A DNA stretch of 64,000 nt from Trichothermofontia sichuanensis B231 (GTDB lineage Bacteria > Cyanobacteriota > Cyanobacteriia > B231): the NCBI RefSeq assembly GCF_026240635.1, contig NZ_CP110848.1:2703501-2767500 (forward strand), in the 5' to 3' direction. The notes beneath the pieces are model-generated. The model was not told the origin of the DNA. It searched no databases and was given only the letters and a program-made list of their open reading frames with translations. The position numbers and the translations under genes are program-made. Below, piece by piece: positions 49,812-53,161 of the stretch (its first letter is position 1; every line of letters starts with the position of its first letter).

Positions 49812-51164
49812 TTAACCCTTGCCGTTGCTGCATCGGGCCACCTCCGTCGGCATATCGCCACCCCCTAATCCGACAAAATGTTGATAGAGCGGGATTACAG
49901 CGTTGTCAATATTAAATTCTTCAATCACCTTCTGGTAGCCAGCGGCTGCCAACCGGGCACGTAAATCCGCATCCTGAGCCATTGTTAGCATACGATCGGC
50001 CAATTGAGACCAATCCCCCGCAATAAACAGCAACCCCGTGCGCTCATGTTCGATCAGTTCAGGAATACCATTGATCATCGGCGCGATCGCGGGTAACTTC
50101 AGGAACAGGGCCTCCATTAACACCACTGGCAACCCCTCAGCAAAACTTGCCAGCACCAAGAAATCACTCTTGAGCATGGTCTCAAATACAACTGTTTCGG
50201 GCTGCACCCCCAACATCTTAACCCGTGTGTCGAGCTGGTACTCATGCACCGCCGCCCGAATTCGCGCTTCATCCGGTCCACCGCCAATCAAAACCAGATC
50301 AGCGTCCATGCCTTGCGCCACTGCCAGTGCAAACGCTTGCAGTAACCCAACTTGCCCTTTATCCGGTGCAAGGCGGGCAACACATAGAACCTGGAGCCGA
50401 TGCGGCTGGGAAAAGTTGCCGTGATTCTTCTGCACAGACGCCGTGCCAACGCCTACCGGATCGCCTGCCTTCGCTTCACCCCAAAGCGATTCACCTGCCG
50501 TAACCCGCTCCAGGGATGCGGGCGACGGAAATTGATCCAATTCCAACCCACACCGTGATACAAACAGCTTGTGCCATTCCGCGGGCGGTGTTAGACGCAT
50601 GGTCTGGGCACGGCCAAATTGGGTGGCACAGGCCACAAACTGACAGGCGGCTACCTTCTCCGCCAGGAGGATTGCCAGCGGATCGTCAAAATCACGGGGG
50701 CCGTGGAGGGTCAGCGACCAGGTGATTCCTAGATAACGGCTAATCGCCAATGCCACATTAGCCGCTGGATTGGCAAAATGGGTATGCAGGTGCTGGATCT
50801 GACGTGCCTCGAATTGCTCAGCCAGCAACATCGCCTCTAGAAAATAGAAGTAAGACCAGAGGAGTCCCTTTAGCCCTGGTAACCGATGCTTTAAGGTTTG
50901 GATCAGTGTCGAGAGATAGGCCGCCGGTCGTCGTAGAAAGAGGCTAAGATTGTTGCGCAGAACATTGAGCGGCGAATTGGGCAGTACATACCAGGTAGTG
51001 GCCAAACTCTGCTGATCAGCAAGTGACATCACTTCATCGGCTTTTGGCCGACGGATGCTGAAGGTGTCAATATCCAGCCCCCGACGCCGAAGGGCTGCCA
51101 CTTCCCGCCGAATAAAGGTATGGGAAGGCGCTGGATACTGACTGCTAAGATAGGCAATCTTCAT
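49812..51164 (-). CDS. GT4-family glycosyltransferase
   Basis: 450-residue GT-B glycosyltransferase. N-terminal domain: KIAYLSSQYPAPSHTFIRRE, HLHTHFANPAANVALAISRY and TLHGPRDF. C-terminal donor-binding domain: LQVLCVARLAPDKGQVGLLQ, LVLIGGGPDEARIRAAV, and the EX7E-type SFAEGLPVVLMEALFLKLPA. ATG 51164 is chosen over a TTG at 51179. It probably builds an exopolysaccharide or glycolipid. The chelatase-like gene ends 15 bp upstream on the same strand, so the two could share a transcript. Donor and acceptor are unknown. Confidence 0.9.
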   Translation of the reverse strand: MKIAYLSSQYPAPSHTFIRREVAALRRRGLDIDTFSIRRPKADEVMSLADQQSLATTWYVLPNSPLNVLRNNLSLFLRRPAAYLSTLIQTLKHRLPGLKGLLWSYFYFLEAMLLAEQFEARQIQHLHTHFANPAANVALAISRYLGITWSLTLHGPRDFDDPLAILLAEKVAACQFVACATQFGRAQTMRLTPPAEWHKLFVSRCGLELDQFPSPASLERVTAGESLWGEAKAGDPVGVGTASVQKNHGNFSQPHRLQVLCVARLAPDKGQVGLLQAFALAVAQGMDADLVLIGGGPDEARIRAAVHEYQLDTRVKMLGVQPETVVFETMLKSDFLVLASFAEGLPVVLMEALFLKLPAIAPMINGIPELIEHERTGLLFIAGDWSQLADRMLTMAQDADLRARLAAAGYQKVIEEFNIDNAVIPLYQHFVGLGGGDMPTEVARCSNGKG

Positions 51165-51179
51165 GAGCGAGAAACACAA

Positions 51180-52499
51180 TCAGTGAGAATGCCCCACTGG
51201 CGAGGCCGGGACGTGAGTCCTAGAAGCCTGGGGATGAACCGGATCAGGCCCGTGACCATGATAATCCCGATCATGATGAAGGCCATGTTGGTGAGGGTGA
51301 TCAGGGTGGTGAGAGTGATGATCAGGGTCATGATGCTGGTGATGGGCTGCTTGGGCAATGGCCAGGGCCGGATTTACGACTAAACTCGGTTCGCTCAAGA
51401 GATCCGCAATCAGGGGGTTTACCCAATTGGCTGCCATGCGTAGAAATTCCGGATGATCGTTCACGCAACCCATTTGTACATAGGTAACATCCGGATGCCG
51501 CCGCCGCAGGGCGTGGATAATATGCTCCACATCCAGTAGGGTTTCGTGGTTCTCGGTTGCAAAGCCGATCGGCATCATCACGATCGCCGTCGCACCCAAA
51601 TCAATTAAATTTCGTGCTGCTTGCCACACATTGGGCTGGGTCCATTCGATCAGGGGGGTGTCGTGGTTCAGCCAGCCGATCGAGATCAGAGGATAACGTT
51701 CAATCAGGCGATCGCGCACGCGATCGTAGAGCAACTGACTTTCCCTAATCCCGGAGGTAAAGCCCTTAGCCTTGTGGGGACAACCGTGGTTCATCAAGAC
51801 AATCCCAATCTGGCAAGGCAGATGGGCCATGCTCAGGTCTGATTGAATTTTGTCTTGCACTAAACGGGCTACTAAATCCAAATAGTCCGGGCGATCAAAG
51901 AATGAGGGCAAATAGCGTATTCCCTTAACCCAGTGGGTTGACGCCGTCGCCATTGCTGCCAGGGCACGATTCACCTGTTCGATCGCAATCCCGCTGGTAA
52001 AGATCGAATCTACGACTAGCAGGGGATAGATCACCAGCCGGTCAAACCCATCGGCCTGGATTTGCGCGAGGACTTGCTGCGGCAGAAACGGCGCACAGAA
52101 GTTAAACGCTTTGTAAACTTTAACGCGATCGCCCCAGGTGGCCTGCAAGTGTTGCTCAATCCCAGCCCGTTGTCGTTCAAAAATGGCGTTGTGGGGTGAA
52201 ATAAAATTGCCATGTTGATGTCCCCATTCATGCAGGTCAAACATCGCCAATAACCGAGCCAAGGCGGGATAAATCCAGGTTGGGACTGGTGCGAACTTGG
52301 CCGTCAGGAGGTTAAGGGCCTGTTCATTGTAGTTGGCAAAATCTTCGTAGCATTCGACCTCACCATAACCCATCAGTAAGACTGCTACGCGATCCCCCTG
52401 GGCAGAAACTGGACGATTCTCCTGGATAGACGCTGCACGGACAGCGGGGGAAGCCATCTCAGTCGTCGGCACTTGGATGTTGTCAGGAGTTGTAACCAC
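51180..52499 (-). CDS. Ferrochelatase/CbiX-like protein with a His-rich C-terminal tail
   Basis: 439 residues from the GTG at 52499 (GAGG 8 nt upstream; a GTG at 52520 and an ATG at 52457 are alternatives). The core (about 30-370) resembles class II chelatases such as ferrochelatase: VAVLLMGYGEVECYEDF, LVIYPLLVVDSIFTSGIAIE, QIGIVLMNHGCPHKAKGFTS and IVMMPIGFATENHETLLDVE. The tail is striking: 19 of the last 54 residues are His, mixed with Asp, like the metal-storage tails of CbiX and nickel/cobalt proteins. It probably inserts or carries a divalent metal. It may not be the housekeeping HemH, which normally lacks such a tail. Confidence 0.78.
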   Translation of the reverse strand: MVTTPDNIQVPTTEMASPAVRAASIQENRPVSAQGDRVAVLLMGYGEVECYEDFANYNEQALNLLTAKFAPVPTWIYPALARLLAMFDLHEWGHQHGNFISPHNAIFERQRAGIEQHLQATWGDRVKVYKAFNFCAPFLPQQVLAQIQADGFDRLVIYPLLVVDSIFTSGIAIEQVNRALAAMATASTHWVKGIRYLPSFFDRPDYLDLVARLVQDKIQSDLSMAHLPCQIGIVLMNHGCPHKAKGFTSGIRESQLLYDRVRDRLIERYPLISIGWLNHDTPLIEWTQPNVWQAARNLIDLGATAIVMMPIGFATENHETLLDVEHIIHALRRRHPDVTYVQMGCVNDHPEFLRMAANWVNPLIADLLSEPSLVVNPALAIAQAAHHQHHDPDHHSHHPDHPHQHGLHHDRDYHGHGPDPVHPQASRTHVPASPVGHSH

Positions 52500-52601
52500 A
52501 GTCGAAACCTCAAATAACACCAGGGGTGGGTTAGCAGCTAAGCTGAAGAAGCCATTACTCAGTCAGTGTTGCTTCACCCAAGTTTATTTATTCAGGCTAG
52601 C

Positions 52602-52618
52602 ATCCCCTCCGGGGGGAT
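52602..52618 (-). promoter_or_regulatory. ATCCCC-N5-GGGGAT palindrome, candidate metal-sensor operator
   Basis: ATCCCCTCCGGGGGGAT is an inverted repeat about 100 bp upstream of the His-rich chelatase gene. CsoR/RcnR-family repressors, which include the cyanobacterial nickel sensor InrS, bind palindromes with G/C tracts of this kind. A flanking pair CCCCTCC/GGAGGGG could also form a hairpin. Assignment is speculative. Confidence 0.35.
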
Positions 52619-52848
52619 AGGAGGGGTTGTCAGTTTCCTTAACGTTCTGGAAGGTTCTAGCCAAGACCCCGCCTGACGCATCTTGCTAGTGAGGTTATTG
52701 AGAGGAAGCATTCTTCATGGGGAGCATCTCAGTTCGGCAATCGGCAGCCCGCATCCCCCAACCCCTGCCCCCAGCAAATGGGGGTTGAGCGAAGGGCAAC
52801 CGGATTTCCAGTCTGTCGCAGCAGGAGAGAGGGATTAAGGGTCAGAGT

Positions 52849-53161
52849 CCTGATTGACTGACAAAACTCGGACTGCCCTCACCCCAACCCCTCTCCCAGA
52901 GCGGGCGAGTAAAGTCCCTTCTCCCACTAGGGGCGAAGGGACTTATAGTCATTGCAATTTAGGCTGAGATAGCTCCCTCACCCTCCCGCCCCTCTCCCAG
53001 AGCGGGAGAGGGAAGTGAAAAACTGTATCGTTCTTATTTGGATTGACCATAGAAGTGAAAATAAAGGAGTGAGAAGTGAGGGCAACTGGGCGACGATCTC
53101 CGTTCTCTTGCCTCTCTTCTCTCTCCTCACGTGAGGGGCCAAGATTTGTCAGTCAACCAGG
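52849..53161 (+). repeat. R2 interspersed element interrupted by an R1 copy
   Basis: Intact R2 termini CCTGATTGACTGACAAAAC on the left and ATTTGTCAGTCAACCAGG on the right; the outer 17 bp are inverted with one mismatch. Total 313 bp, of which 108 bp (52944-53051) is a complete R1. Without the insert the element would be about 205 bp. 52500-52848 upstream contains the palindrome and R3-like C-rich sequence only. Confidence 0.9.
52944..53051 (+). repeat. R1 interspersed element, copy 4, nested in R2
   Basis: Full-length copy from TATAGTCATTGCAATTTAGG to TTGGATTGACCATA. It is bounded on both sides by R2 interior sequence (GGCGAAGGGACT on the left and GAAGTGAAAATAAAG on the right). Confidence 0.93.

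Follow-up and report, generated by a model that had tools for sequence, protein, structure and literature searches.

The chelatase gene described here probably codes for a second chelatase of the HemH/CpfC superfamily, repressed by the nickel sensor InrS and inducible by Ni(II), with a His-rich tail that would buffer or deliver metal. We infer the operator-binding protein (InrS), the signal (nickel), the metal binding of the tail and the enzymatic reaction, and the control by InrS is drawn by analogy with the InrS-nrsD system. The following features were located in the window (the whole stretch of 64,000 nucleotides that was analysed):

52602..52618, no strand assigned: operator palindrome ATCCCC-N5-GGGGAT, ATCCCCTCCGGGGGGAT; perfect, from sequence and conservation
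52594..52599, minus strand: -10-like TAGCCT, abutting the operator as GC-TAGCCT
52508..52511, minus strand: putative ribosome-binding site GAGG, from the sequence
51180..52499, minus strand: chelatase gene, a HemH-superfamily paralogue of 439 aa from GTG 52499, Pfam Ferrochelatase 122 bits
51417..52388, minus strand: chelatase core, residues 37-360 of the protein (P0001), from the Pfam match, AlphaFold2 and Foldseek
51786..51788, minus strand: His237 of P0001, aligned with the active-site His of ferrochelatase (His183 of B. subtilis, His263 of human), from the alignment to CpfC
51543..51545, minus strand: Glu318 of P0001, aligned with the active-site Glu of ferrochelatase (Glu264 of B. subtilis, Glu343 of human), from the alignment to CpfC
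51183..51344, minus strand: His-rich C-terminal tail, 54 residues with 19 His, from the sequence
49812..51164, minus strand: glycosyltransferase gene, Pfam Glycos_transf_1, GT4-type

The open frame and its tail of 54 residues with exactly 19 His, both described in an earlier sequence-only reading of this DNA, are real. The open frame, 51180-52520 on the minus strand, gives 446 aa if GTG 52520 is used; this listed codon lies 7 codons upstream of GTG 52499, which is the likely start (MVTTPDN..., 439 aa) because the relatives begin MVATPEK and the N-terminus MV(A/T)TPE is conserved. The GAGG that likely serves as ribosome-binding site also precedes GTGGTTGC in many relatives. The glycosyltransferase gene does begin 15 bp past the chelatase stop (intergenic 51165-51179), as the same reading had stated, but in the neighbourhood comparison it is not kept beside the homologues. 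An operon forming a functional unit with the glycosyltransferase was rejected, since the adjacency is not conserved and the link is local only. A riboswitch or RNA leader was likewise rejected, the chelatase leader giving no Rfam match and a folding z of -0.53. The conserved neighbour, found in 63 of 110 loci, is a divergently oriented gene upstream of the homologues (e.g., L046:5253-5831, minus strand); its product of about 190 aa is uncharacterised and has no Pfam match, and the gene is absent from the window. Upstream of the chelatase gene the window carries intergenic direct and inverted repeats of the CCCCTCTCCCAGAGCGGGAGAGGG type at 52740-53020.

Judged by sequence and predicted fold the chelatase core is HemH-like and not CbiX-like. 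P0001 scores 122 bits against Pfam Ferrochelatase compared to 37 bits against CbiX, and a profile built from 37 relatives has CpfC of B. subtilis and Listeria as its first matches and finds sirohydrochlorin cobaltochelatase with an E value no better than about 0.5. The structure prediction which the sequence-only reading had asked for was run with AlphaFold2 and gave a model with pTM 0.70 and pLDDT 71 in which the tail is disordered; the model is moderate because the alignment consisted of 37 close relatives only. The best Foldseek matches of this model are all HemH/CpfC (E 4e-13, TM by target 0.79), and the weaker ones are CbiK (5.7e-7), CbiX (1.1e-5) and SirB (4.8e-5). A chelatase fold is thus present by both Pfam and Foldseek. 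The core had been described as ferrochelatase/CbiX-like, of which the HemH-like half holds and the CbiX-like half does not; an identity as CbiX or CbiK was rejected because both are weaker by sequence (Pfam, profile) and by fold (Foldseek).

P0001 shares with HemH/CpfC of B. subtilis, Listeria and human the fold and the positions of the active-site His and Glu. It differs from them in the low identity of 16-19% in structural alignments, in the His tail and in the operator of metal-sensor type; it has no C-terminal, chlorophyll-binding CAB helix, its tail being His-rich. An active site and a core nearest to CpfC/HemH, and not to CbiK/CbiX, would suit a ferrochelatase for stress conditions which inserts Fe(II) into porphyrin and so allows haem synthesis to continue while nickel or other metals poison HemH; its tail would protect or load iron. 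The stress response of a gene annotated as hemH in Nostoc PCC 7120, alr4616, which may or may not be the His-tailed copy, is in line with this: it changes 8.6-fold at low CO2, where metal-efflux clusters rise (PMC7699953), and its level increases in a pkn22 mutant exposed to peroxide (PMC4518582). However, against the NCBIfam hemH equivalog TIGR00109 P0001 reaches only 77.7 bits, below the cutoff of 124.6, whereas the housekeeping HemH of the genome reaches 429.7 bits, and the InrS-type operator points to nickel and not to iron. We consider a stress ferrochelatase rather unlikely.

The His-tailed chelatase is a paralogue, because a CAB-type HemH is encoded elsewhere in the genome, as are two CbiX proteins. 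A search for a housekeeping hemH had been asked for together with the structure prediction; it found the CAB-type HemH at C1:2370850 (411 bits), with the CAB-type tail EVWNGRLAMIGF in that copy, and the possibility that the His-tailed chelatase is the sole HemH of the genome was rejected. Nearly all genomes bearing the His-tailed chelatase have a second, HemH-level match. One of the two CbiX proteins is CbiX-L-like, with MxCxxC and a His-rich tail of its own (HSHEHSHAHGHRHAHGHSHAHGHSHNH; L130:2969-4039), so that the genome encodes two different His-tailed chelatases; the other is a second CbiX.

CbiX-L cobaltochelatase resembles P0001 in being a class II chelatase with a His-rich C-terminus. 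P0001 is unlike it in having a core of HemH type and in lacking the MxCxxC motif by which CbiX-L is recognised, and a CbiX-L-like protein is encoded separately in the genome. A role of the His-tailed chelatase in making a cobalt tetrapyrrole is less likely because the CbiX-L-like protein (MxCxxC, His tail) and the second CbiX are present. A cobalt or siroheme chelatase of CbiX/SirB type, serving B12 or siroheme, would agree with the weak Pfam CbiX match and with the His-rich tail that CbiX-L likewise has (PMC5816740). It is nevertheless very improbable, as that function already has two CbiX proteins in this genome, no B12 genes are found among the conserved neighbours, and P0001 is without MxCxxC and has its nearest fold in HemH.

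The distribution of the family was followed in 386 genomes sampled evenly over the phylum, 186 of them Cyanobacteriia. Close homologues, mostly 67-77% identical, are present in 98 of these 186 genomes, that is in about half. The His-rich C-terminus, as used to recognise CbiX-L, was seen in all of the approximately 110 close relatives read, and it is very variable in length and sequence, the number of His being about 7 in Nostoc-like genomes and exceeding 30 at the other extreme. Being universal yet so variable, the tail would fit a non-catalytic nickel store in which an old chelatase scaffold carries the His tail, comparable to nickel buffers of the Hpn or HypB type. Retained catalysis would be favoured by the invariance of His237 and Glu318 in the 37 relatives, together with that of over 130 further residues, and we hold a mere nickel store to be unlikely. 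It should be noted that His tails are not by themselves proof of a metal role.

Several genomes contain a sister subfamily (L294-L298) of about 50% identity which has neither His tail nor operator in five of five cases; therefore the tail and the operator travel together. Small genomes of the genus g45 hold chelatase remnants, short or interrupted by stops (G183:C1:2299291-2299515 and G268:C1:2348811-2349101), which suggests a lineage-specific decay of the gene. His-rich C-termini have been reported in cyanobacterial ferrochelatases lacking the CAB domain, a subset termed previously unidentified and unstudied (PMC8529089, 2021). That group, of the HemH superfamily, cyanobacterial and with a His-rich C-terminus, is very probably the same family as the His-tailed chelatase. 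The His-tailed group is thus already on record, but that study recorded the tail only; the operator, the regulator with its InrS link, the paralogy and the coupling of tail and operator are additions of the present analysis. A search of the open-access literature (subscription papers lay outside it) found no report of the operator, the InrS link, the tail-operator coupling or a metal response.

The palindrome ATCCCC-N5-GGGGAT, which the sequence-only reading had pointed out upstream of the gene, is perfect and conserved in front of the orthologues, and chance was rejected as its explanation on account of this conservation. It has one exact match in the window and two in the genome of 4.44 Mb, and on the coding strand 103 bp separate the operator from the start codon. 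The upstream regions of the relatives show a recurrent ATCCCC-N-GGGGATG-TTA-nnCTA, with TATCCTATCCCCCTGGATGGGATA in the Nostoc group, and TAnnCT is found at the -10-like position in many of them. When sites were picked on GGATG[CT]TA, the column frequencies were 91% for the next C and 100% for the T, both outside the selection pattern. The pattern ATCCCCN5GGGGATGNTA occurs 18 times in the 386 whole genomes and 16 of these sites are directly upstream of the chelatase, therefore the site is almost a single-gene switch; the reversed control pattern has no occurrence.

One of the remaining two sites is in genome G008, at L196:3043-3063 (C16:121542-121562), where an exact copy of the operator-promoter separates a ferritin-like gene from the divergent genes cbiM-cbiQ-cbiO. 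This copy, beside the ferritin-like gene and the Ni/Co importer, may be a further target of the same regulator, restricted to G008. No such upstream site is present in the 29 further ferritin-like loci that were read (two of them have remnants with 2 mismatches), and a wider regulon including the ferritin-like gene was rejected as a general feature for that reason; a ferritin-like gene of the G008 type is absent from the genome of the window. A perfect 17-mer near hemH was also considered as a promoter element and rejected, since it is about 2 kb from hemH and shows no sign of acting in a promoter.

The genome encodes one CsoR-family protein. It matches the InrS structure (PDB 5fmn) with 163 bits, its Cys and His-x3-Cys ligands are conserved and its N-terminus is His-rich, and by these sequence characters it is an orthologue of the nickel sensor InrS. 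Among the 186 Cyanobacteriia genomes 89 have both the chelatase and a CsoR, 9 the chelatase only, 18 CsoR only and 70 neither (Fisher 8e-24, a value which is not corrected for phylogeny and is confounded by clade). An operator was scored when ATCCC-N7-GGGAT, with one mismatch allowed, lay no more than 400 bp from the chelatase. By this definition 79 of 88 chelatase genomes with CsoR have an operator, which is perfect in 45 of the 88; reversed-sequence controls gave 5/88 and no perfect site. The chelatase genomes without CsoR have an intact operator in 0/9 cases, compared to the perfect site in 45/88 of those with CsoR (p=0.003), and as these nine represent about three lineages the number of independent loss events is small. 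The earlier suggestion of an operator in the style of CsoR/RcnR is thereby borne out, as the site is conserved and its occurrence follows that of a CsoR-family protein, here the InrS orthologue.

Three of the nine CsoR-less genomes have a one-mismatch site; all belong to the genus g29, and their left half-site is broken (TATCgC), whereas those genomes of the genus whose CsoR match is full read TATCCCGTGC... with an intact TATCCC. No recognisable operator was found within 400 bp of the chelatase in about 8 genomes with CsoR; in genome G027 the operator lies just beyond this range. In g13, one of the approximately three lineages of CsoR loss, some CsoR-bearing relatives also have no recognisable site. 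The assignment of the operator to InrS comes from comparison of genomes, and CsoR and the chelatase both track clades with large genomes, as they would if the palindrome served another regulator whose distribution happens to match that of CsoR. We find this improbable, because the palindrome with its G/C tracts is in the style of CsoR/RcnR and because the decay of the operator coincides with the loss of CsoR within one genus.

InrS has been studied in Synechocystis PCC 6803, where the apo form represses nrsD and Ni(II) releases it, Cu and Zn acting transiently (PMC4235346, PMC7055735). The likeness to that system consists in the presence of an InrS orthologue and of a repressor-type operator at a promoter; the target there is an exporter, whereas the candidate target here is a chelatase. 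A search with the related operator pattern in InrS genomes without the chelatase gave no match near nrsD.

By this analogy the InrS-controlled, Ni(II)-inducible chelatase could work as follows. Apo-InrS would sit on the G/C-tract palindrome abutting the -10 element and block transcription. Ni(II) in excess in the cytosol, and transiently perhaps Cu or Zn as well, would release InrS and derepress the gene, and at high nickel the His-tailed chelatase, with the HemH-type active site intact, would be made. Its C-terminal tail would most likely bind surplus divalent metal, and might either pass this metal on to the core, which would insert it into a tetrapyrrole, or keep it away from HemH and Mg-chelatase. 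A more far-reaching version, which we regard as a speculative outside chance, is that under excess nickel the dedicated chelatase moves Ni(II) from its own tail into a tetrapyrrole, and that a nickel-tetrapyrrole new to cyanobacteria thereby serves for the disposal, storage or use of the metal.

If the preferred model is true, a tetrapyrrole chelatase would be directly under a nickel sensor, and in photosynthetic bacteria the chemistry of haem and chlorophyll would thus be tied to metal stress. The model would also provide a conserved and testable candidate InrS operator whose occurrence in cyanobacteria extends far past Synechocystis. A large family which profile libraries label just as ferrochelatase would gain a function that can be tested.
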